From IMG/VR virus record IMGVR_UViG_3300042112_000102, positions 1-23,505 of that record: DNA of 23,505 nt; one strand, given 5' to 3'. The notes beneath the pieces are model-generated. The model had not been told where the DNA came from. It saw only the letters and a list, made by a program, of their open reading frames with translations, and did no database searches. The position numbers and the translations under genes are program-made. The DNA comes from a virus. Positions 38 through 23,439 of this stretch are shown here, piece after piece. The first letter of the stretch is position 1, and each line of letters opens with the position of its first letter.

Positions 38-232
38 TTAGATGTTGCGGTGCCAAATTCCGCAATCGGTGCGGCTGTCGTCAACCCACACGGCCACGTA
101 ACCCGCCTCTTTGCGCCACGCGCTCTTGGCATCCTTGCGAGCGACCCGGATGGCATTGGCTTTGTTGGCAAACACGGCCGGGCCTTCATCCTGCGATCCG
201 TCTTCATGCGTCCAGCTGATCCGGTAAGCCAT
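38..232 (-). CDS. Small soluble protein of unknown function, leftward
   Basis: This 64-aa protein begins MAYRISWTHEDGSQDEGP and continues with a Lys/Arg/Ala-rich helix (about residues 23-42) and a Trp-containing end (WVDDSR...GIWHRNI). I see no signal peptide, membrane segment or catalytic motif. Short proteins of this style (two beta strands, then a helix) are frequent in phage and plasmid accessory regions, but I cannot name a function. The start is well supported: an AAGGGAGA Shine-Dalgarno lies about 7 bases upstream, behind a strong promoter with two operators (253-304). It is the only gene at the left end read leftward. A tightly controlled lone divergent gene suggests a regulatory or lysogeny-expressed role, which is inference from layout only. 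Confidence 0.75.
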   Translation of the reverse strand: MAYRISWTHEDGSQDEGPAVFANKANAIRVARKDAKSAWRKEAGYVAVWVDDSRTDCGIWHRNI

Positions 233-2502: not shown

Positions 2503-2937
2503 ATGCCTGCCGGCGGATGGGGCAAGCCGGGCGACGCCACATACAAGGCGCCGTCTGGCATGCCTGCGTCTGGCATTCCCGCCAAGGGCAACGGTCAAGG
2601 CCCGGCGCAGGGGCTGGGCTACGGCGGCGACGCTGGCGGCGTGCGGCAGACGTTCACGGCTGAGAACCAGCCCGGCTACGAGGCGCAGGCGCGAGGCAAG
2701 GAGCAGATGGCGACACTTCGCGAACTGCTGGAGCCGTATCGCGCCGATGTGGTGACGACGTGGGTCAACGTGCTGAGCGATCCCAACGCTAGCGCACGCG
2801 ACAAGATCACGGCGGCTGAGAAGATCGCGGATCGGCTGGAAGGCAAGCCCGCACAGACGTTGCAGGGGCCGCCGGATGACGCTGGCAAACCCACATCCCT
2901 AGCGGTGGCATTTGTCCGACCTGGCGCCCAAGATTGA
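2503..2937 (+). CDS. terS: Putative terminase small subunit
   Basis: This 144-aa protein has a Gly/Pro-rich N-terminal third (residues 1-50) and a helical part (about 66-125) ending in DKITAAEKIADRLEGKPAQT. That block resembles the helical domain (A-A-x-x-L-D-R-x-x-G-K-P) in many small terminase-like genes next to terL. It overlaps the large terminase by 26 bases, the usual terS-terL arrangement. TerS recognises the packaging site on concatemeric DNA and feeds it to TerL; in P22-like phages the pac site often lies within terS. No clear helix-turn-helix can be read by eye. The assignment rests on position plus partial sequence similarity. Confidence 0.6.
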   Translation: MPAGGWGKPGDATYKAPSGMPASGIPAKGNGQGPAQGLGYGGDAGGVRQTFTAENQPGYEAQARGKEQMATLRELLEPYRADVVTTWVNVLSDPNASARDKITAAEKIADRLEGKPAQTLQGPPDDAGKPTSLAVAFVRPGAQD

Positions 2938-4189
2938 GTTCCCCGAGAAGCTGGAATGCCTGTTCCGGCCGGGGCGCTACAAGGTTCTCTATGGCGGGCG
3001 TGGCGGGGCCAAGTCGTGGGGCGTGGCCCGCGCGCTGCTGGTGCAAGGGGCTGCGGAACCGCTTCGCGTTCTCTGCGCACGCGAGATTCAGAAATCCATC
3101 ACGGATAGCGTTCACCGCCTGTTGGCCGATCAGGTTGCGGCGTTGGGGCTGTCGGGGTTCTACGAAGTCCAGCAGACGACGATAAAAGGCGATAACGGCA
3201 CGCAATTCATTTTCGCGGGCCTTCGTCATAATATCAACAATATCAAATCACTAGAGGGCGCGGATAGGGTTTGGGTTGAAGAGGCGCAGACGGTTTCGAA
3301 GGCGTCGTGGGAAAAGCTAATCCCGACGATCCGAAAGCCTGGTTCGCAAATCATTGTGTCGTTTAACCCCGAATTGGACACCGATGAAACCTATGTCCGG
3401 TTCGTCAAGAACACGCCGCCAGGCGCTGAGGTGGTCAAAATCGACTGGCGCGATAACCCGTGGTTCCCCGAGGAATTGCGGGCCGAGATGGCGCACCTTC
3501 GGGAGACGGACCCGGACGCTTATCTGACGATCTACGAGGGCCACTGTCGGCAGGTTCTTGATGGCGCGATCTATGCCAAGGAACTGCGGGCGGCGACCGA
3601 GGAAGGGCGCCTGTGCCGGGTGCCGTACGATCAGACCAAGCCGGTTCACACGTTTTGGGACTTGGGCCGTGCGGACAAGACAAGCATCTGGTTTGCGCAG
3701 ATCGTCGGCTTTGAGTTTCGCGTAATTGACTTCTATGAGAACAGCGGCGAGGCACTGGCGCATTACCTCAAGGCGTTGCAGGGCAAGCCCTACGTCTATG
3801 GCGACGACTGGTTGCCGCACGACGCGAACAACGAGTTGCTGGCTTCAGAGCGCACGATTGCCCAGCAGATGCGCGCGGCCGGTCGCACGGTGCGGATCAC
3901 GCCCAAGGCTAAGGTTGTGGACGGCATCAACGCCGCCCGCTCGCTGTTCCCGAACGTGTGGTTCGATGCCGACCGTTGCGCCGATGGGCTGAACCACTTG
4001 CGCCGCTACCGATACGACGTGGACCCGGATACGGGCCAGTTCTCCAAAGAGCCGCTGCATGACGACGCAAGTCACGCGGCCGATGCCTTCCGGTATCTGG
4101 CTGTGGCGCTGCGCGAGAAAAAGGCACCAGCCGCGATGAAGCCAATCTTCCGCCCGGCTGTGACCGGAAATAACGCATGGCTGGCCTGA
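2912..4189 (+). CDS. terL: Terminase large subunit (DNA packaging ATPase-nuclease)
   Basis: The 425-aa protein has all expected parts of a Terminase_3-type large subunit. Walker A GGRGGAKS is at 28-35 (Lys34), Walker B RVWVEEA at 119-125 with catalytic Glu, and a coupling motif IIVSFNP at 147-153. The RNase H-like nuclease domain has Asp250 (FWDLGRADKTS), HDAN at 303-306 and HDDASHAADAFRY at 383-395. It pumps DNA into the prohead through the portal and cuts at headful. The length is slightly below Sf6 or P22 gp2 (recalled as about 470-500). It starts at TTG inside terS, with no better in-frame ATG before Walker A, so translational coupling is likely. Its stop overlaps the portal start. Confidence 0.97.
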   Translation: MSDLAPKIEFPEKLECLFRPGRYKVLYGGRGGAKSWGVARALLVQGAAEPLRVLCAREIQKSITDSVHRLLADQVAALGLSGFYEVQQTTIKGDNGTQFIFAGLRHNINNIKSLEGADRVWVEEAQTVSKASWEKLIPTIRKPGSQIIVSFNPELDTDETYVRFVKNTPPGAEVVKIDWRDNPWFPEELRAEMAHLRETDPDAYLTIYEGHCRQVLDGAIYAKELRAATEEGRLCRVPYDQTKPVHTFWDLGRADKTSIWFAQIVGFEFRVIDFYENSGEALAHYLKALQGKPYVYGDDWLPHDANNELLASERTIAQQMRAAGRTVRITPKAKVVDGINAARSLFPNVWFDADRCADGLNHLRRYRYDVDPDTGQFSKEPLHDDASHAADAFRYLAVALREKKAPAAMKPIFRPAVTGNNAWLA

Positions 4190-6294
4190 GAGACGACGAT
4201 CTCCTGAAGGAGATTCGCACGAACTTCGCGGCCTGCGAGGATTGGGAAGCGACGGCGCGCGAGAACTTCATTCTTGATGTGAAGTTTGGCAACGGCGACG
4301 CGCGCAACCTGTGGCAGTGGCCGGATGATGTGCAGCGGGCGCGTAGCCTACCTGGCTCACAAAAACCCATGCTGACGGTTAACAAGACCCGCCAGCACTG
4401 CCTACAGATCATCAACGACGCACGCCAGAACAAGGTGGGCATCCAGATTCGCCCCGTGGGCGGCGAGGCGACGGAGAAGGCTGCGGAACTGTATGAGGCC
4501 CTGATTCGGGGCATTGAATACCGTTCCAACGCAACGCTTGCCTATGAGGCGGCGATGTATAACGCGGTGTTCGGCGGCATCGGCTATGTCCGCGTGCATG
4601 TCGATTACGCGGACGAAGACAGCTTTGACCAAGACATTTTCATCAAGCGGGTTGCCGATCCGCTGACGATCTACCTTGACCCGGACATTCAGGAATATGA
4701 CGGTTCCGATGCCCGGTTCGGGTTTGTGTTCGAAGACTTGCCGCGCAAGGAAGCCGAGGCCAAGTACCGGCGCTACAAGGAGGCGTTTGCCGAAACGCCG
4801 GTTGACGACGCGGATAGCTGGTGCGGCCGGGAGAAGGTTCGCATTTGCGAATATTTCTGGCGGGTGGAGAAACCCGACACGCTGATTGCCTTGCCCGATG
4901 GCCAGACGGTGCGCAAGTCTGAACTGCCGCCCGGCGCCTATGACATGCTGAAGGCCGAGGTTGAGGCGGCGGGGCTGGAATTGCGCGAGCGTCCGACCGT
5001 CAACCAGGCGGTGGAGTGGTGCAAGGTCATCGGCAACACTATCGTTGAGCGCAAGCCGTGGCTGGGGAAATACATCCCGATTGCCCGGCTTGTCGGTGAA
5101 GAGACGGTCATTGAAGGCCAGATGGACCGCAAAGGCCATGTCCGGGCGCTTCTCGATCCGCAGAAGATGTACAATTACAACTCGTCGGGTTCCGTCGAGT
5201 TTGTGGCGTTGCAGACGAAAAGCCCGTGGCTGGCCAGCGCGCGAGCCGTCGAAGGCAACATGGAGCAATGGACTGAGGCAAATATCAAAAACGCCTCCGT
5301 TCTGATTTGGAACGACGTTGACGAGGCCGGCAACCCGATCCCGCCGCCGCAGCGCATCGCCCCGCCGCCTGCCGCGTCTGGCCACATCGAGGGCATGCAG
5401 GTAGCCCAGCAGGAGATGATGCTGGTGTCTGGCCAGTATCAGGCCATCATGGGCGCGCCGTCGAATGAGACGAGCGGCAAGGCCATCAACGCCCGGCAGC
5501 GGCAGGGCGACAACGCGACGTATCACTTCATCGACCATCAGGCGGTCATGATCCGCTTCCTTGGTCGGATCGTGCTGGACTTGATACCCAAGGTTTACGA
5601 CACCGCGCGCGTGTTGCAGGCCGTGGGCAAGGATGACAAGCGGTTCAAGATCGCGGTTGACCCGAACGCCGCAACACCCGCCGAACAGCAGGCGGACCCG
5701 GCGGACGAGGATTTCGACGCGGAGACGGTGGCGGCGGTGCTGAACCCTGCCATTGGCAAGTATGACGTGATTAGCGACGTTGGCCCGTCCTATGCCACGC
5801 AGCGGCAGGAAGCGTTTAACGCCTTTTCGCAGATCATGCAGCAGCAGAAAGGCGCGTGGGAAATCGTGGGCGACTTGTGGGCGGAGTCTGCGGACTTCCC
5901 CGGCAGCGAGAAGTTGGCCGAACGGCTGCGCAAGTTGCTGCCGCCTGCGGTCAAGGGTGGCCCGTCGCCTGCGGAACAGCAGATGCAGCAGCAGTTGCAG
6001 GCCATTTCGCAGACGGCCAATGCGGCGGTGGAGCAGTTGCAGGCGCAGCTTGCCGAGGCTGAGCAAAAGCTGAAGGACCAGGAAGCGGACATCCAGCGCA
6101 AGGATTACGAGGCGGAGACGCAACGGTTGTCTGCCGTGGGCAAGATCGACCCGGAGGCGCTGAAGCCCGTTGTGCGCGAGATGGTGTCGCAGATGCTTGG
6201 GCAGCCCGTCGTGCCGCTGATGGCGCAGCACGCGGCGGCGGATCAGGCGATGCAGCCCGCGCCGGAGCCGGTCGATGCCTACGCCGCGCAATAG
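4177..6294 (+). CDS. P22-type portal protein
   Basis: This 705-aa protein is close in length to the P22 portal (about 725) and follows terL directly, overlapping it by 13 bases. The N-terminal region (LLKEIRTNFAACEDWEATAR, then an F-G-N-G-D-x-x-N-L-W segment, then MLTVNKTRQ) and the region QIRPVGGEATEKAAELYEAL are typical of this family. Residues about 598-650 are Gln-rich coiled coil (EQQMQQQLQAISQ..., AEAEQKLKDQEADIQ), like the C-terminal barrel of P22 portals. As a dodecamer it forms the vertex through which DNA enters and leaves, and it docks the tail machine. The start ATG at 4177 has a modest GGAAA upstream. Confidence 0.95.
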   Translation: MAGLRDDDLLKEIRTNFAACEDWEATARENFILDVKFGNGDARNLWQWPDDVQRARSLPGSQKPMLTVNKTRQHCLQIINDARQNKVGIQIRPVGGEATEKAAELYEALIRGIEYRSNATLAYEAAMYNAVFGGIGYVRVHVDYADEDSFDQDIFIKRVADPLTIYLDPDIQEYDGSDARFGFVFEDLPRKEAEAKYRRYKEAFAETPVDDADSWCGREKVRICEYFWRVEKPDTLIALPDGQTVRKSELPPGAYDMLKAEVEAAGLELRERPTVNQAVEWCKVIGNTIVERKPWLGKYIPIARLVGEETVIEGQMDRKGHVRALLDPQKMYNYNSSGSVEFVALQTKSPWLASARAVEGNMEQWTEANIKNASVLIWNDVDEAGNPIPPPQRIAPPPAASGHIEGMQVAQQEMMLVSGQYQAIMGAPSNETSGKAINARQRQGDNATYHFIDHQAVMIRFLGRIVLDLIPKVYDTARVLQAVGKDDKRFKIAVDPNAATPAEQQADPADEDFDAETVAAVLNPAIGKYDVISDVGPSYATQRQEAFNAFSQIMQQQKGAWEIVGDLWAESADFPGSEKLAERLRKLLPPAVKGGPSPAEQQMQQQLQAISQTANAAVEQLQAQLAEAEQKLKDQEADIQRKDYEAETQRLSAVGKIDPEALKPVVREMVSQMLGQPVVPLMAQHAAADQAMQPAPEPVDAYAAQ

Positions 6295-7342
6295 GCTGGC
6301 GCCGTCGCCGATTGAGGATAATCCGGTTGGGTGGTCCAGCATCTACCCGCCGCCGCCTGGACGCGTGATTGAGAACGCCAGCCCGGAGTTTTCGCCGCTG
6401 GCACCGTCAACCTACATGACGGCGGCGCAGAAGGTCGGGCGGTTCTTCAATGCCGCCACGGGCCGCGCCAAGCCCTACACGGTGGCGGACCTGCTGGGGC
6501 TGACACAGGCTGGCAACGAGGCATACGACGCGGCGGCGGGCTTCGTGAACTCGACCAATCCCATCCGCGCCTATCACGGCTCGCCGCACACGTTCGACCG
6601 TTTCGATATGTCGAAGATCGGCACGGGCGAGGGCGCGCAGGCGTATGGGCATGGGCTGTATTTCGCGGGGAATGAGGGGGTGGCGCGGGCTTACAAGGAA
6701 GCGCTGTCTCCCGTTGGAAACGGCGCTGCAACGGGCGCGACCGATGCGGCGGGCTTAGCTTCTCGGGCGTTGCAAACTGCCAATGGCGACCCTGCTAAAG
6801 CAATTGCTGCGCTGGAATACAATTTGCAGATTTCGCGCGCCGCAAATGGCGGTGTTGTCGCGCAGGATTTTGCAACGAAAGTCGCCGAAGCGCGGCGCCT
6901 GTTGGCTGACCCTGCTTCGCGCGGCTCCATGTACGAGGTCAACCTCCGCACGACGCCCGAGCGGTTGCTGGATTGGGATAAGCCGCTGAGCCAGCAGCCG
7001 GCGGCGGTGCGGGAGGCGGTGGGGAGGGTAGGGCTTCCTGATGCTTATTGGGCTGAACAATTTGCCAACAACCCGGTTCTAGCGTTGGGTAACATAGGCC
7101 ATGGATACGGGGGCGTTGCTACCGCCGCCCGGACGCCAGCCGGCGCAGAAGCTCTTCGCCAAGCCGGCATCGACGGCATCCAATACCTAGACGCTGGCTC
7201 CCGCGCCGCTGGCGAGGGCTCGCGCAACTACGTGATGTTCCGGGATGACATTATCGACATTCTGAAGCGTTACGGGCTGTTGGGCATGATTGGCGGCGGG
7301 GCAGCGACAGGCAACCGGCTGGCGCCGCAGGGAGAACAGTAG
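6275..7342 (+). CDS. ADP-ribosyltransferase-like protein (ART-PolyVal type)
   Basis: The 355-aa protein carries the signature of ADP-ribosyltransferases found in polyvalent phage proteins. YHGSPHTFDRFDMSKIGTGE starts at residue 100 with the NAD-site His101, then YGHGLYFAGNEGVARAY (124-140). MYEVNLRTTPERLLDWDKPL is at 219-238, and GIDGIQYLDAGSR...NYVMFRDDIIDIL at 298-330. The expected H and Y elements are present; the acidic third element should lie in the last block but I cannot fix it by eye. Residues 1-60 are Pro-rich and the tail is Gly-rich (GLLGMIGGGAATG). Family members move ADP-ribose from NAD to targets. It lies between portal and scaffold, overlapping the portal by 20 bases (GGAG eight bases before ATG), suggesting a packaged or ejected enzyme. 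Confidence 0.85.
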   Translation: MPTPRNRLAPSPIEDNPVGWSSIYPPPPGRVIENASPEFSPLAPSTYMTAAQKVGRFFNAATGRAKPYTVADLLGLTQAGNEAYDAAAGFVNSTNPIRAYHGSPHTFDRFDMSKIGTGEGAQAYGHGLYFAGNEGVARAYKEALSPVGNGAATGATDAAGLASRALQTANGDPAKAIAALEYNLQISRAANGGVVAQDFATKVAEARRLLADPASRGSMYEVNLRTTPERLLDWDKPLSQQPAAVREAVGRVGLPDAYWAEQFANNPVLALGNIGHGYGGVATAARTPAGAEALRQAGIDGIQYLDAGSRAAGEGSRNYVMFRDDIIDILKRYGLLGMIGGGAATGNRLAPQGEQ

Positions 7343-13059: not shown

Positions 13060-13499
13060 CCTCCGTAGAGCCCGTGACGCCGGGCCTGTTGTCCGCCTTC
13101 CTCGCTGCGATGGGCGACGCCGAGCGCGCGGACTTGGAGCGGATCGGCGGGCGCGCGGTTCTTGACAACGCGGTGGCGCAGTCGGTCCACACGTTCGCGG
13201 GCGTGGTGGATGGCGTGCCGGCGTTCGTGGGCGGCGTCATCCCCGACGACGAGCATGTGACCGGCAAGGTGTGGATGATGGCGACGCCGCAGGTGGAGCG
13301 GGCCAAGAAGTTCTATCTCCGCGAGACGCGCCGGCAGGTGGCGTTGATGCTGGAATTGTTTGTGTGCTTACGAACCATGGTGGCGGCGGAATACACGAAG
13401 TCGCTTCGGTGGCTGCGGTGGCTGGGCTTCGCGCTTGGCAAGCCTGTAGAGCGCGCCGGGCGTGTCCTGATTCCTGTGGAGCGGTGGAATGAAGTTTAG
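13056..13499 (+). CDS. DUF2833-like phage protein (GNAT-like fold)
   Basis: The 147-aa protein, read from GTG, has MGDAERADLERIGGRAVLDN, a V-V-D-G-V-P-A-F-V-G-G-V strand pair at about 50-61, VWMMATPQVERAKKFYLRET and a final AAEYTKSLRWLRWLGFALGK. This is the pattern of DUF2833/T7 gp13-like proteins, with an acetyltransferase-like fold: a domain often encoded near the ejection proteins of podoviruses and thought to help place internal virion proteins. The closing S-x-R-W-L-R-W-L-G-F block is the most diagnostic. The GTG overlaps the previous stop (GTGA), and its stop lies inside the next gene. Catalysis is not implied. Confidence 0.75.
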   Translation: MTSVEPVTPGLLSAFLAAMGDAERADLERIGGRAVLDNAVAQSVHTFAGVVDGVPAFVGGVIPDDEHVTGKVWMMATPQVERAKKFYLRETRRQVALMLELFVCLRTMVAAEYTKSLRWLRWLGFALGKPVERAGRVLIPVERWNEV

Positions 13500-14202
13500 C
13501 CCCGGTCCTGCGTCTCTCTGGGAAACGGCGGTGTTCGATCCCATTTCGGCGGCGATCAGCGGCGGCGTGTCGCTGATTGGTGGCTTGGTGTCTTCCGGGG
13601 CCGCTGGGGATGCTGCGGATACGCAGGCTGCGGCGGCGCGGAATGCCGCCGGCATGCAGATGCAGCAGTTCCAGCAGACCCGCGAGGATTTGGCGCCTTA
13701 TCGAGCGTATGGCGTCAAGGGCGGCGATGAACTGGTCAATCGGCTTAAGGAACTGACGGCGCCATTCACGGCTACGCAGGCGCAGCTAGAGGCAACGCCG
13801 GGCTACCAGTTCACGCGCGATCAGGGGCTGAAGTCGGTTCAGTCTGCGGCGGCGGCGAAGGGGCTGGGGCTATCGGGGGCTGCGCTCAAGGATGCGGCGC
13901 GGTTCGCCACGGGGCTGGCGGATAGCACTTACAAGACGCAGTTCGACATTGACCAAACGAACAAAAACAACGCTTGGAACAAGTTGCTTGGGCTGACCCA
14001 GGTGGGCGCGAACGCGGCGGCGAATACCGGGCAGTTGGGCGTGCAGGCGGCGAACAACGCTGGGAACAACCTGACGGCGGGCGCCAATGCGCAGGCGGCG
14101 GGCACGATTGGCGGGACAAATGCCATCGTGGGCGGCATCAATAACGCGGCGAACCTATACGCGACGTATGCGCTGGCGAACAAGTTGGGGGCGTGGCGGT
14201 AA
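13489..14202 (+). CDS. Ejection (DNA-transfer) protein, gp7-like
   Basis: This 237-aa protein has a glycine-zipper hydrophobic segment near the N-terminus (about 18-40: AAISGGVSLIGGLVSSGAAG), then a helical Gln-rich part (MQMQQFQQTREDLAPYRAYG). The highly typical block is TPGYQFTRDQGLKSVQSAAA then AKGLGLSGAALKDAARFATG, at about 103-145. That block marks virion-internal DNA-transfer proteins of many podoviruses. The Ala/Asn-rich C-terminal half is low complexity. Such proteins leave the head before or with the DNA and build a conduit across the cell envelope. It is the first of three consecutive ejection genes; it starts at 13489 with GGAG upstream, overlapping the previous gene by 11 bases. 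Confidence 0.85.
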   Translation: MKFSPGPASLWETAVFDPISAAISGGVSLIGGLVSSGAAGDAADTQAAAARNAAGMQMQQFQQTREDLAPYRAYGVKGGDELVNRLKELTAPFTATQAQLEATPGYQFTRDQGLKSVQSAAAAKGLGLSGAALKDAARFATGLADSTYKTQFDIDQTNKNNAWNKLLGLTQVGANAAANTGQLGVQAANNAGNNLTAGANAQAAGTIGGTNAIVGGINNAANLYATYALANKLGAWR

Positions 14203-15581
14203 TGGCTCTTGACCCCAACATTGCCCTACAGGCCGGCACTGGCATTGCGGCGCCCCCGAACCCGCTTCAGCAGTTGGGGCAGGTTGGCACTATCGCCAAC
14301 ACGTTCGCGCAGAACAAGTTGCTTGGGCAGTCGCTAGAGACGCAGCAACAGGCGCTTGCGGCGACGCGGCTCAAGACGCTTGGCGCCATCGCTGGCACCG
14401 CTTTGCGCGCCTACGATCCGCAGAACCCCGCCAGCGCCAACGGTGTGGTAGATGCGCTGCATCTCGGCATTGATTCGGCCGTTGCTAATGGCTCCATTGA
14501 CAAAAACACGGCGCAGCAACTGTATCAGGGCATCGCGGCAACCAAGTCGCCGCAGGACTTGATTGGCCGCGTGCAGCAGTTCGCGCTTATGGGCATTGAT
14601 CCCAACGCGGCGCTTACGCGCATCTACGGGGCGCCGGGCAGTGTGTCCAATGGCCAGGACTTGCAGCCGGGCATCGTGCGCGATCCGATGATGGGCGGCG
14701 GTTTCAACCCCGCTGGCCCTGCCATTCCTCAGTTCCCCAGCCGGTCGGAACTGGCGGGGCGCGTTCCGGGGCCGCCGGGGCCGGGCGGGGCGCCGACAAG
14801 CGTTCCGCTGGGCAGTGTCACGCCTCCTGCGCTTGGTGGCCCTGCCGTGTCGCCGCTGGGCACCGGGCGCCTTCCCGACGCGCTACGCAACCCCGCCAAC
14901 CCTGCCGCGCCTCCGATGGCGTCGCCCACGGGCCAGGTGGCGACCGGGCTAGGCCCGGCGCAGTCGGCTGCGCAATCTCAGACCGGCGGCCAAGCGGCGA
15001 CGCGCTTCACCGAGATTGCCGATCAGGGCGTTCGGGCGCAGTCGCAAGACGCGATCCTGTCCAACATGCTGACCGAAGCCGAGCAATTCACCACGGGTTC
15101 CATGGCGGATCGGGTGAAGAAATTCGGACAGTTCACCGTGCGGTTTGCCCCCGGCGTGGCGCGGTCCTTTGGGCTGGACGAAAAGACCGTTGCGGCCAAC
15201 GAATCGTTTGACAAGTTGGCGGCGCAGATTGCGGACGCTCAGGGCGCGGGTTCCGATGCCCGGCTTGCCGTCACGCAAAGCGCCAACCCCAACAGCAGCC
15301 TTTCCCCCGAAGGCATTCGGTTGATCGTGAACCAGCTTCGCGGGAACGCCGATTACATGCGCGCCCGCGCCACGCTGGCGGCAAACTGGCCCGACAAGGC
15401 GGACCATCAGGGCTTTGAGCAATTCGCCAAGAACCTTGATCCGCGCGTGTTCCAGTTGATCCGCATGACGCCGGAACAGCGAACGACATTCTTCAACAAA
15501 ATGCCGGCGGCGGATCGCGAGGCCGTCAAGCAGTCGTGGGCGTGGGCGAACTCGCAGGGTATCGGCGGCGGTGGTCGATAG
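14202..15581 (+). CDS. Ejection protein, gp20-like
   Basis: The 459-aa protein has an Ala/Gln-rich helical N-terminal part, a long Pro/Gly-rich linker at about 165-250 (PGPPGPGGAPTSVPLGSVTP), and a helical C-terminal part (ILSNMLTEAEQFTTGSMADR; LRGNADYMRARATLAANWPD; QLIRMTPEQRTTFFNKMP). The last part resembles the C-termini of internal virion proteins of P22/T7-type phages. It sits second in the ejection block, as P22 gene 20 does. The ATG at 14202 (TAATG overlap, GGGGGCG upstream) is preferred to the GTG at 14193. No enzyme motif is visible. It probably builds the trans-envelope channel with its neighbours. Confidence 0.75.
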   Translation: MALDPNIALQAGTGIAAPPNPLQQLGQVGTIANTFAQNKLLGQSLETQQQALAATRLKTLGAIAGTALRAYDPQNPASANGVVDALHLGIDSAVANGSIDKNTAQQLYQGIAATKSPQDLIGRVQQFALMGIDPNAALTRIYGAPGSVSNGQDLQPGIVRDPMMGGGFNPAGPAIPQFPSRSELAGRVPGPPGPGGAPTSVPLGSVTPPALGGPAVSPLGTGRLPDALRNPANPAAPPMASPTGQVATGLGPAQSAAQSQTGGQAATRFTEIADQGVRAQSQDAILSNMLTEAEQFTTGSMADRVKKFGQFTVRFAPGVARSFGLDEKTVAANESFDKLAAQIADAQGAGSDARLAVTQSANPNSSLSPEGIRLIVNQLRGNADYMRARATLAANWPDKADHQGFEQFAKNLDPRVFQLIRMTPEQRTTFFNKMPAADREAVKQSWAWANSQGIGGGGR

Positions 15582-17958
15582 ATACGCCCCGATCTTCGAA
15601 GCCGCCGGGCGCGAATGGAACGTTGATCCGCGCCTGTTGCGGGCGATTGCGATCCAAGAGAGTGGCGGCGATCCCACGGCGCGTAGTCGTGCTGGCGCTG
15701 TGGGCGTTATGCAGATCATGCCAGGCACCGGGCAAGAGCTTGGCGTCACGAACCTGACGGACCCCGAGCAAAGCATCTACGCGGGCGCCAAATACCTGTC
15801 GCAGATGCTGGACCGCTACAAGCACCCGGAACTTGCCTTGGCTGCCTACAACGCCGGGCCGGGGCGCGTTGATGCCTACTTGAAGGGCGGGGCGTTGCCT
15901 GACGAGACGCTGAAGTACGTGCCGGCCGTCAAGGCGCATTTCGAAAGGTCGCAGCCCGTGGGAGATCGTCGCGCATCCGCCCTGCCGTCCGATGCGGACT
16001 TTCTCAAGTCGCTGCCCAGCGCCGGCCCCGACAAGCCGGCGCCCATGTCCGACGCGGATTTCCTCAAGGCGCTTCCGGGTGGTGACGCGCCGCCCGCACC
16101 GCCCCAACAGGACCGGCGCCAACAGGGCAACCCCGACGATCCCGTGATGCCGCAGCGTTTCCAGCGCCGCGCCGATCTTGGCCCTCGTTCTTCGTCTGCG
16201 GTCGAGACGGGCACCACCGTGGGCAGCATGGTGGACAGCGCCCGCAACATCGGCGCCGCCGCCGCGCGCGGGTTTCAGGAAGGCTCTCAGCCGCTACCGC
16301 CGCTGGTGACGCCGGTCATGGAGGGGCTAGGCGTGTTCGGGCCTGCTGGCGGCGGCACGCTCATGCAGGGCGTCAACCGGCAGATTATCGCCCCTGTGGC
16401 GCAATTGGGCGAATGGGCGCTAAGGGGTGCCAACGGCCTGTTTCGCGGGGCTCAGGCGGGCGTGGCGCAAGCGGGCGCGGAGATTGACCAGCCGCAACTA
16501 GGGCGCGACCTGGCAGCCATCCCCGAGGCGTTCATGGGCGGTGGCATGGGGATGCCGCGCAACCGACTGGCGCCCGGTGTTCACACCGAAGCGCCGTATG
16601 CACGCCTCGCTGCCGACCTAGAGGCCCGCATAGCGGCCGACAGGACGCCGCCTGCGCCTCCGCCGCCACCGCCGGGTATGCCCGTCCCCGACTTCCTGCC
16701 GCCCGGTGTGCGGGCTCCTGAAGCGCCTCCCGTGCGTCCTGCGGCGCCGCCTGAATTTCTGCCGCCGGGCGTGGCTGCCGAGGCTGGCCCGCGTCGTTCG
16801 GCTGGCGCGGCTGCGGCGACGGATCAGGAAGCCAATATGTCCCGCAAGGAGGCTGTGGCGCAGCGGGCGACGGCAGAGCGGCAGGCGTTGCAAGAATCCC
16901 AGCCGGCGGGCGTGGCGGACAACACCGAATACGTGCCGGGCAGCGTTCCGACCGAAGCGCACATTGCACAGACCACGGAGGCCGCGCGGGCCGAAAAGAG
17001 CATGGCGACGCAATCGCCTGCCGCCAAGCAGATGTTTGACGACCTCCGGGCGCGCAACAACGAAGCACGGGCAGATTTCTTTGCCGAGATGGAGGGCAGC
17101 CCGACGCTCAAATTGCGCCTAGAGCAGGCGCGGGAGCAACAGGCACAGGCGGACTTGCGCGCGGCGTGGCGGAACAAGGGCGCAGCCGATGCGACCCCGG
17201 TTGTCAAGATGGCGCAGTCCATCATTGATGGACCCGCCGGGCGCCAAGAGTCCGTTGAAAAGACGATGAAGAATGTCTTGGCCCGGATGCAGGACAAAAG
17301 CGGAAAGCCATACACCGATCCCGAAATGCTCTACGGGGTGCGCAACCACATCCGCAATCTGCTTGAGGGCAAGACCGACGACAGCGCCCAAGCGTCGCTG
17401 GCGCGCAAGGAACTGGTGCAAATCCGCGATGCGCTAGACGGCGTGATCGAGCAGGCCGCGCCGGGCTTTCGCCAATACCTTGAGAACTTCAAGCAGGCTT
17501 CGGCGCCGATTGACGAAATGGAAATCTTGCAGGCGTGGAGTAAGAAAATCCGTTCCGACAACGGGAACGGCCCGATTACGTTCCAAGGCGTGCAGCGGAT
17601 GATGAAGGACCTCGTCAGCGCGCGCGAAAGCACTCAGCCGCATGCGGCGCACGGGATCAGTGACGAGACGATGGCTAAGCTGTGGGCGCTGCGCAACGAC
17701 CTCCGCCGCCAGCACGCATCCGAAACACTGGCCCGCGCGCCGGGTTCGGATAGCGGGCAGAATTTCTTCGACGCAGCCAAGGGCCTAGCGACCCGCGCGG
17801 CTGCTGAGGGTGCTGCGGCTGCGGTAGGCGTCCCGCCCGGCATCCCGTCAATGATTTGGGGGACTATCACCGGCCCCATGCGTGAGAACGCGCTGTTGCG
17901 GGGCGCCAACCGCGCCACCAGCGTTGATCCAAACCGCCTGCGCCCACCGCCGCAGTAG
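15571..17958 (+). CDS. Virion transglycosylase-ejection fusion protein, gp16 position
   Basis: The 795-aa protein starts with a lytic transglycosylase (SLT) domain: IAIQESGGDP with catalytic Glu30, AGAVGVMQIMPGT at 41-53 and LAAYNAGPGRV at 90-100. This should cut peptidoglycan locally during DNA entry. Twin motifs SDADFLK[SA]LP follow at 140-149 and 160-169, then a hydrophobic Gly/Ala region (about 225-330), a Pro-rich linker with twin [DE]FLPPGV (374-380, 395-401), and a long helical C-terminal half with EMLYGVRNHIRNLLEGKTDD. P22 gp16 (609 aa) holds the same place but lacks a clear SLT domain. The GTG overlaps the gp20-like stop by 11 bases. The 3' end overlaps an antisense gene. Confidence 0.9.
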   Translation: MVDRYAPIFEAAGREWNVDPRLLRAIAIQESGGDPTARSRAGAVGVMQIMPGTGQELGVTNLTDPEQSIYAGAKYLSQMLDRYKHPELALAAYNAGPGRVDAYLKGGALPDETLKYVPAVKAHFERSQPVGDRRASALPSDADFLKSLPSAGPDKPAPMSDADFLKALPGGDAPPAPPQQDRRQQGNPDDPVMPQRFQRRADLGPRSSSAVETGTTVGSMVDSARNIGAAAARGFQEGSQPLPPLVTPVMEGLGVFGPAGGGTLMQGVNRQIIAPVAQLGEWALRGANGLFRGAQAGVAQAGAEIDQPQLGRDLAAIPEAFMGGGMGMPRNRLAPGVHTEAPYARLAADLEARIAADRTPPAPPPPPPGMPVPDFLPPGVRAPEAPPVRPAAPPEFLPPGVAAEAGPRRSAGAAAATDQEANMSRKEAVAQRATAERQALQESQPAGVADNTEYVPGSVPTEAHIAQTTEAARAEKSMATQSPAAKQMFDDLRARNNEARADFFAEMEGSPTLKLRLEQAREQQAQADLRAAWRNKGAADATPVVKMAQSIIDGPAGRQESVEKTMKNVLARMQDKSGKPYTDPEMLYGVRNHIRNLLEGKTDDSAQASLARKELVQIRDALDGVIEQAAPGFRQYLENFKQASAPIDEMEILQAWSKKIRSDNGNGPITFQGVQRMMKDLVSARESTQPHAAHGISDETMAKLWALRNDLRRQHASETLARAPGSDSGQNFFDAAKGLATRAAAEGAAAAVGVPPGIPSMIWGTITGPMRENALLRGANRATSVDPNRLRPPPQ

Positions 17959-18189
17959 CCAAATCCGCGCGCTCGCTGCGCACCAAGCCAAACCCGCGAT
18001 AGCCAGATAGCCGCCCTCTGCCCGGCCATCCGCCGGGATGCGCCCAAACTGCGCCTCTAGGTGCATTGCCCACCAGAAACAGCCCACCGCCGTCAGCACC
18101 AGCCACGCGGCGATGCGGCCGATCCCATGCCCTGACCACCAGAGCCAGCCAAGCACGGACGCAACCGCCGTGCCGATTACCCACGCCAT
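17848..18189 (-). CDS. Antisense small membrane protein, possible superinfection exclusion
   Basis: This 113-aa protein is read against all its neighbours. Three hydrophobic segments are visible: about 3-18 (WVIGTAVASVLGWLWW), 25-42 (RIAAWLVLTAVGCFWWAM) and 61-79 (GYLAIAGLAWCAASARIWLL), the last followed by RRW. The start has a strong GGGAGG five bases upstream, and codon use shows the same G/C third-base bias as real genes here. It fills the only sizeable gap without rightward genes (17959-18213), and its last third overlaps the ejection gene by 111 bases. In P22 the opposite-strand sieA/immunity I genes lie exactly between gene 16 and the tailspike gene, so a SieA-like inner-membrane block to DNA entry is an attractive inference. 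No sequence similarity is claimed; a holin-like role is the alternative. Confidence 0.65.
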   Translation of the reverse strand: MAWVIGTAVASVLGWLWWSGHGIGRIAAWLVLTAVGCFWWAMHLEAQFGRIPADGRAEGGYLAIAGLAWCAASARIWLLRRWAQAVWINAGGAVGAPQQRVLTHGAGDSPPNH

Positions 18190-18193
18190 TCTG

Positions 18194-18204
18194 TCCTCCC
18201 GGAG
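18194..18204. promoter_or_regulatory. Shared Shine-Dalgarno block for two divergent genes
   Basis: CTCCCGGAG (18196-18204) is an odd-length palindrome. Read leftward, TCCTCCC (18194-18200) gives GGGAGGA five bases before the antisense ATG. Read rightward, GGAG (18201-18204) lies nine bases before the fibre ATG at 18214. Only 24 bases separate the two start codons, so no promoter fits between them. The fibre gene must be read from upstream and the antisense gene from inside the fibre gene. Confidence 0.6.
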
Positions 18205-18213
18205 CCTGCCCGC

Positions 18214-19698
18214 ATGGCGCTACCTCTGCCCAACGGCGAAACCCAGTTCATCGACGCCAGCGGCAATCCGTTGGCTGGGGGTTACGTCTATCACTACGTT
18301 CCCGGCACAAGCACGCCAAAGAACACCTATCAGGACCAGGCTGGCACGATTGTGAACAGCAATCCAGTGGTGCTGGACGCGGCGGGGCGGGCGATCATTT
18401 TTGGCGATGGCCTGTATCGGCAAGTAGTGACGGACAGCCTGGGCAATCAGGCGTGGGACCAAGAGACGGGCGTTGCGACGCTTTCGGTTCTCGGTGCGGT
18501 GGCCAAGGCGGGCGACACGATGACGGGGCGCCTCACGGTGCCGGCGTTCACGTCCACCTCTACCGCAGCGGCGCAGACGATTACGCCGATTGGCAATCCT
18601 TCGCTGCTGGCGATGAACCCGATTAGCGGCACGACCACTTCCAGCACGCAAAACGAACTGGCGCTGTCCATCAACCTTGTCAGCAACACGGGCGCCGCCG
18701 CTACGGTGCCAACGGCCAAAAACAAGGTGGCGCTCTACTCGGCCATCCAAGCCGACGCCGGCAGCGGCAACGTATGGGCGTTCAACCCGTTGCTGCTGTT
18801 GAACTCCGGAGCCTGCACCATCGGCGGGGCGCAGATTGCGGAGTTCGACCTCGCCAACAACAGCGGGACGCACTTCGGGGACGCGGGCGGTTTCCCGGCG
18901 CAGCCTGCCGTATTCGGCATGCAGATCACCGGCATCAGCACCAACCGCGCGACGGCGGCGGTGGCGGTGCTGGGCAACCTTGCCGACCTCGTTTCCCCGA
19001 TGTGGAATCAGGGGCTTGTGTTCGCCTCGCAGAGCGTGCGCCTGACCACGATTGCCGACTACACCAACAGCGTCACGTCGATTGACCTGCAAGGCGTCCA
19101 CACGGGCTACGGGCTCGATACCTACAATGGTTCGTTTGCCTCCGGGGCAATCCGGCTGGACAGTCAGGCCCGCATCGTGGCGCGCAACGCGGCGGACAGC
19201 ACGGATATCGACGTTCTGAAAACTTCTGTTTCTGACAGCCTCGTTCTGGGCAGCGCGTCGTCTCCCTACATCATCGCCACGGCCGGCACCGGCTTCGTCC
19301 CGTCTGCCGATAACACGCTGGTGTGCGGCGTCTCTGGCGCCCGCTGGTCCGCCGTGTGGGCGGCGAACGGCACCATTCAGACCTCCGACCCGTCGCTGAA
19401 AACCGACATTCAGCGGCTGACCGGCGTTCCCACGGGCGACATTATCGACGCCATCAAGCCAATTACCTTTCGATGGCTGGACGGCGGCGGCGGGAAGCCT
19501 GGCAAGCGGACGCATTGGGGCTTCAACGCCGAAGAAATCGGCACGATTGCCACCAAGGCCAAGCGCGACTTCGGCGGGTTCGTGAAAGCTGAGGACGACA
19601 CGCTTTCGATTCGACCAGACCAGTTGATCCCGATTCTGTGGGAAGAGATGCGGCGCCTCCGCAAGCGCGTCGCCCAGCTTGAGGGGCGCAAGTCGTGA
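18214..19698 (+). CDS. Tail fibre with S74 intramolecular chaperone
   Basis: This 494-aa protein begins with a head-binding-type domain: AGGYVYHYVPGTSTPKNTYQ, then an N-x-N-P-V-V-L-D-A-A-G-R segment, then GDGLYRQVVTDSLGNQAWD. A G-D-T-M-T-G-R-L repeat at 100-106 precedes a beta-rich shaft. The C-terminus is a Peptidase_S74 chaperone. SDPSLKTDI starts at residue 391, with the catalytic pair Ser391 and Lys396 spaced five residues apart as in endosialidases; I-x-P-I-T-F-R-W, HWGFNAEEIG and a closing coiled coil (LWEEMRRLRKRVAQLEGRKS) follow. The chaperone folds the trimer and then cleaves itself off before Ser391, leaving a mature fibre of about 390 residues. Receptor recognition is inferred. Confidence 0.92.
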   Translation: MALPLPNGETQFIDASGNPLAGGYVYHYVPGTSTPKNTYQDQAGTIVNSNPVVLDAAGRAIIFGDGLYRQVVTDSLGNQAWDQETGVATLSVLGAVAKAGDTMTGRLTVPAFTSTSTAAAQTITPIGNPSLLAMNPISGTTTSSTQNELALSINLVSNTGAAATVPTAKNKVALYSAIQADAGSGNVWAFNPLLLLNSGACTIGGAQIAEFDLANNSGTHFGDAGGFPAQPAVFGMQITGISTNRATAAVAVLGNLADLVSPMWNQGLVFASQSVRLTTIADYTNSVTSIDLQGVHTGYGLDTYNGSFASGAIRLDSQARIVARNAADSTDIDVLKTSVSDSLVLGSASSPYIIATAGTGFVPSADNTLVCGVSGARWSAVWAANGTIQTSDPSLKTDIQRLTGVPTGDIIDAIKPITFRWLDGGGGKPGKRTHWGFNAEEIGTIATKAKRDFGGFVKAEDDTLSIRPDQLIPILWEEMRRLRKRVAQLEGRKS

Positions 19699-23056: not shown

Positions 23057-23130
23057 TCAACACATCGTCAATGTTCCGTGAAAGCGCTGATTGCGCCTAG
23101 AAGTTGTGGCGATGCCCGGAGAAATGTTCC

Positions 23131-23439
23131 ATGAATGACACCGTTGATTCCGGCCTCGTGGCGGTCATGGAGCGTGTAACGCGGGTTGAGACGCTGATTG
23201 AGCAGAGCGCGCACGCCTCTCGGGAGTTTCGGGAGGCGACGAACGCGCGCATGGAGAAGATGGCGGGCGATATCAACGCCATCGGGGCGAAGATTGACGG
23301 CATTGCGCAGGATATCGTGGTGGCCAAAACGCGGCTTCAGACCGGGGCCAGCCTGCTTGGCGTCATCGGGCGCCAGGCGCCGGGGCTGTCGATCGGCGGG
23401 GCTGTGGCGTGGGCTGCGGCGCATTGGCCGTGGAAGTAG
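23131..23439 (+). CDS. XhlA/holin-like coiled-coil membrane protein
   Basis: The 102-aa protein has an N-terminal coiled coil at about 5-70 (VMERVTRVETLIEQSAHASR, KMAGDINAIGAKIDGIAQDI). One hydrophobic segment near the C-terminus (about 75-98: SLLGVIGRQAPGLSIGGAVA then WAAAHW) follows. This layout, a cytosolic coiled coil then a single C-terminal membrane helix, matches haemolysin XhlA-type holin-associated proteins. With a lysis position right after the tail genes, it probably helps release the endolysin, which would lie beyond the window. The start at 23131 has GGAG nine bases upstream and is preferred to the in-frame TTG at 23104. Confidence 0.65.
   Translation: MNDTVDSGLVAVMERVTRVETLIEQSAHASREFREATNARMEKMAGDINAIGAKIDGIAQDIVVAKTRLQTGASLLGVIGRQAPGLSIGGAVAWAAAHWPWK

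Follow-up and report, generated by a model that had tools for sequence, protein, structure and literature searches.

The 23,505 nt window, a virus record from IMG/VR that was analysed as one stretch of DNA, contains an antisense ORF with an ATG start which, on the sequence evidence, is a genuine gene under selection. The sequences show that it is coding and selected, that its place and strand are conserved, that it is optional and that it falls into no known family; its product appears to belong to a new family of small accessory membrane proteins. Our best single guess at the function, with a probability of roughly 0.45, is that the protein is a SieA-like superinfection exclusion factor.

The antisense gene and its P22-like surroundings

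Judged by its genes, the genome around the antisense ORF is P22-like. There are matches to the P22 portal (E 3.6e-161) and the P22 coat (E 5e-31), and the window also holds a scaffold-like protein, a head closure protein (Hc3), an internal virion protein, a DNA-ejection family protein and a third ejection protein that bears an SLT domain. The preliminary description placed the ORF in the interval from the last ejection gene to the fibre gene, and both its coordinates and its strand are as given there. Its 3' end overlaps the final 111 nt of the SLT gene, which is gp16-like and matches a PHROG of internal virion protein/lytic tail protein, and its start and the ATG of the S74 fibre gene, which faces it head to head, are 25 nt apart. 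The fibre gene is followed by a pectate-lyase-like spike. The features are listed in Table 1.

Table 1. Features of the antisense gene and its neighbours in the window
Feature	Position	Strand	Evidence or remark
DNA-ejection protein, PHROG 598	13489..14202	+	E 6.7e-33
gp20-position ejection protein	14193..15581	+	gene order; no PHROG match
gp16-like ejection protein, N-terminal SLT domain	15571..17958	+	PF01464, E 7.7e-30
Overlap of the 3' ends of the antisense gene and the gp16-like gene	17848..17958	-	codon score at background
Antisense membrane protein gene (predicted), 113 aa	17848..18189	-	ORF, homologues, dN/dS, codon use, SD
Layout of the antisense gene			conserved core, codons 1-94; variable tail, 95-113
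Shine-Dalgarno sequence GGGAGGA just before the ATG	18190..18203	-	in the spacer that it shares, head to head, with the fibre gene
Tail fibre, C-terminal Peptidase_S74 chaperone	18214..19698	+	PF13884, E 5.4e-07

Three other ORFs of the window were observed. At its left end there is a 64-aa antisense ORF (38-232, minus strand) with a gene-like codon score. The 355-aa protein encoded after the portal gene (6275-7342, plus strand) has a sub-threshold match to ART-PolyVal, an ADP-ribosyltransferase (E 3e-6), and no counterpart is called at that place in G001, G002 and G003. A 111-aa protein (23104-23439, plus strand) has a coiled coil and a C-terminal hydrophobic segment, with an analogue in G003, and is likely to be the start of a lysis region cut by the end of the window.

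Relatives were found via the ejection genes that neighbour the antisense ORF, and they carry homologues in the same interval and on the same strand. In the part that is free of the gp16 gene, dN/dS against the relative L042 is 0.26 (bootstrap 95% interval 0.12-0.49) and 30 of the 59 changes are at third codon positions (P = 0.004). A second, independent pair, L045/L040, has a dN/dS of 0.23, with a wide interval as there are only 8 changes, and values of 0.41-1.9 are obtained when this DNA is read in other frames. The gene-like codon use reported earlier holds for codons 1-77, where the synonymous codon score is 0.25 (window genes span 0.07-0.42; null ORFs, -0.05, sd 0.15); the tail that overlaps the gp16-like gene scores 0.05. 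The ribosome site had also been described as strong, and at -10.3 kcal/mol the Shine-Dalgarno sequence comes first among the 23 genes compared, ahead of all 22 others. Only 0.2% of random sites reach this value and the site is kept as AGGAGGA in L042. The last residues (about 19, beyond residue 94) are not conserved among the homologues, and this tail is probably incidental read-through into the complement of the gp16-like gene.

Two readings do without a functional protein. A GC content of 64.5% gives rise to many long antisense ORFs, this one partly overlaps a real gene and one relative, G002, is without it, so that the ORF might be spurious and lie opposite a non-coding or regulatory interval. 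This is hardly credible given the dN/dS values in two independent pairs, codons that are gene-like solely outside the overlap, a Shine-Dalgarno sequence stronger than any other compared and homologues that reach down to about 28% identity in the distant one, and we reject it on these grounds. It is very unlikely that what counts is the RNA and not the protein, with an antisense transcript that regulates the expression of gp16 or the fibre: the overlap with the gp16 3' end and the head-to-head fibre gene would suit such a role, but selection acts at the level of the protein, which can be aligned at about 42% identity.

Homologues and the ejection-fibre interval

The homologue in L042/L041 (G001/G005) has 94 aa and is 68% identical to the window protein, and those in L045 and L040 (G003 and G004) are shorter proteins with about 40-50% identity. 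In the ejection-fibre interval of the distant relative L030 (G016), two antisense membrane genes lie in tandem and overlap (L030:12840-13539, minus strand); they are paralogous to one another (z = 10.7). One of them gives shuffle z scores of 4.5-4.6 against L045 and L042 (P = 0.0015-0.0025) and of only 1.7 against the window protein itself, and in a profile search of 4,712 ORFs it was the top non-member (E 0.058). These comparisons make the L030 gene a likely, though not a certain, homologue of the window family.

A deletion in G002 (L039) has removed the Shine-Dalgarno sequence and the first 60 codons of the gene; the ribosome-binding site of the fibre gene is kept, and what remains is an open C-terminal remnant without a start. 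The preliminary description had held that a frame broken in relatives would refute its proposal; the frame is broken by this N-terminal deletion in one of five lineages and is not broken in the others. The deletion shows the gene to be accessory and dispensable rather than spurious.

The claim that the protein represents a new sequence family agrees with all the searches made. There is no family for it in Pfam, PHROGs or NCBIfam, and no match was found in 50,697 phage records, 72,556 plasmids and 84,980 prokaryote genomes. A profile search of the PDB gave nothing better than E 0.46. A match to DUF2905 (E 0.033) was far below the family cut-off and was discarded.

It had also been proposed that the same interval in relatives be checked for other opposite-strand membrane genes. 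Besides the homologues, L015 and L033 have hydrophobic ORFs on that strand that are unrelated to them. Comparisons gave no support for the antisense ORFs of L015, L033 and L034 as homologues, and the one located behind the ejection gene of Pseudomonas phage PAE2 is not similar to the window protein. The antisense ORF of Acetobacter phage phiAX1 is dissimilar and has no hydrophobic segment; the interval in this phage contains Arc/KilA-N-type genes. The junction is empty in L024, L026 and L029. In another P22-like group (L078-L080, about 2906-4982) the interval is occupied by lysozyme and membrane genes on the sense strand, so that the site is generally open to the insertion of accessory or lysis genes.

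A site that varies in this way across relatives, and a protein with no family match pointing to exclusion, would also fit a moron, that is, an accessory membrane protein whose role lies in the envelope, host physiology or defence and is unrelated to a block of ejection. This is quite possible, but there is nothing positive for any particular other function, and topology and place match SieA. A holin, antiholin or other lysis protein is distinctly unlikely, since both G001 and G016 have lysis genes of their own on the sense strand: in G001 a module downstream of the fibres with GTA_holin_3TM (E 6e-16), an M15 endolysin and a spanin-like gene, and in G016 a GH108 lysozyme beside a coiled-coil/TM gene. 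Additionally, the antisense gene runs against late transcription, is lost in G002, is not the sole holin candidate in a lysis cassette and has no holin match in Pfam, PHROGs or NCBIfam. What a lysis role would account for is the predicted small three-helix form, the tandem paralogues of L030, which recall holin pairs, and the lysis genes in the interval of the distant L078-L080.

Predicted topology, expression and possible role in exclusion

The protein had been described as having three membrane helices, and this is also what is predicted from the hydropathy of the homologues and a low-confidence model. There are three TM segments by hydropathy in L042 and L045; in the window protein, helices 2 and 3 exceed a simple hydropathy threshold and helix 1 does not. 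AlphaFold2, run with five sequences, places helices at residues 2-18, 22-48 and 53-94 with low confidence (pLDDT 63). The loops are a short GH-IGR loop and an acidic or neutral loop, and there is a basic RR tail. By the positive-inside rule, this distribution of charge suggests an N-out/C-in topology with the basic tail in the cytoplasm.

One part of the preliminary description, expression in the lysogen, is not borne out. The window is a genome fragment; G001 carries the gene and is complete (184 nt end redundancy, 98.9% identity). There is no recognisable tyrosine integrase in G001 or in G016, also complete (128 nt end redundancy, 99%), and no serine recombinase or S24-type repressor in G001 and the other close relatives. 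This leaves lysogenic expression unsupported for the clade. There is a weak Cro/YdaS-like HTH protein in G001 and an HTH protein in G016, and persistence by means other than integration may occur. A scan for sigma-70-like promoters, using a consensus that may not be that of the host, gave none on either strand (0.2 expected). A promoter was also sought under the first codons of the fibre gene, at the 5' end of which synonymous change is not reduced.

For the exclusion reading, we infer the topology, timing, target and effect of the protein as follows. An accessory gene transcribed against the late operon would give a small protein with three helices. This would sit in the inner membrane and interfere with the conduit of an incoming related podovirus, which would be built from the gp16/gp20-like ejection proteins of the invader. 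Expression would come before late transcription, by which the antisense gene would be opposed. As the complete relatives have no recognisable integrase, it is less likely that protection would come from a classical prophage than that it would act in the course of infection or from a non-integrated state. Selection on the protein and the tandem pair of antisense paralogues that a distant relative has at this place count in favour of exclusion. Against it count the lack of SieA similarity or motif, of an integrase or S24 repressor in close relatives and of a recognisable antisense promoter, and the fact that the gp16 allele is not linked to the type of antisense gene.

These alleles were seen when the gp16-like gene of the window was compared with those of the relatives L039, L040, L042 and L045. 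There are at least three alleles of the C-terminal part (alignment columns 480-839, about 40% of the protein), roughly 30-60% identical, and phages with differing C-termini are mostly more than 85-90% identical in the N-terminal part. G001 and G002, for example, are 87-100% identical in columns 1-420 and 31-55% identical from column 480. The gp20-position protein has a variable middle among the relatives. P22 escapes SieA by mutations in the C-terminal parts of gp16 and gp20 (Leavitt et al., 2024, PMC10883804). The alleles hint at selection, or at modular exchange, in the domain to which SieA escape maps in P22. An exclusion arms race could drive this diversity; adaptation to a host partner would give the same pattern. 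Across the five phages there is no correlation between the gp16 allele and the type of antisense gene, so no matched pair is visible. A more specific form of the exclusion reading, which we consider doubtful, is that there is a new family of small antisense inner-membrane exclusion proteins, sometimes present as tandem paralogues, in P22-like phages without a recognisable integrase, that these would act during infection on the ejection conduit and that swapping of the gp16 C-terminus would be the other side of the arms race.

If the protein does act in exclusion, the gp16-fibre junction hosts antisense membrane exclusion genes beyond the SieA sequence family, and such genes occur in phages without a recognisable integrase too. 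It would then provide a natural system for testing how the podovirus ejection conduit is stopped by small inner-membrane proteins, with allelic gp16 C-termini ready-made. If the function differs, this is still a new conserved family of phage membrane proteins, of a kind that gene callers could miss in dense late operons.

Comparison with known systems

The protein resembles class I holins and GTA_holin_3TM (PF11351) in its small size and three predicted membrane helices. However, it has no Pfam match, and the GTA_holin_3TM of G001 is a separate gene on the sense strand. Proteins of the T4 Imm type are small inner-membrane exclusion proteins of lytic phages. The antisense protein would be like them in being a small membrane protein, and such a system would suit a phage without an integrase; T4, however, is another type of phage.

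In the P22 record, gene 16 ends at 13313, sieA is at 13336-13830 on the minus strand and gene 9 starts at 16204, in agreement with the earlier statement that P22 keeps sieA in the same interval and orientation; the interval holds sieA, mnt, arc and ant. Wherever the location of sieA in P22-like prophages has been studied closely, it is flanked by the homologues of genes 16 and 9 (Leavitt et al., 2024, PMC10883804). SieA itself is an inner-membrane protein that has three TM segments and a cytoplasmic C-terminus, and it keeps P22-like phages from injecting their DNA by way of gp16/gp20. The antisense gene has this position, being on the opposite strand between the homologues of these genes in a P22-like phage. 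A BLASTP comparison of 11 sequences, in which type A alone represented the SieA types A-C, gave E 0.23, and the motif FxRYPxEAxxFNK is present in P22 SieA only and absent from the antisense proteins. With neither the motif nor significant similarity, the protein is not classed as a SieA. It also differs in size (87-113 aa for the antisense family, about 164 aa for P22 SieA) and in occurring in phages without a recognisable integrase. The likeness lies in an optional antisense gene, situated in a P22-like phage after the gp16 gene and before the fibre/tailspike gene, and in three predicted TM helices with a C-terminus that is probably cytoplasmic. We favour SieA-like exclusion because place, strand, predicted topology and dispensability all fit SieA.
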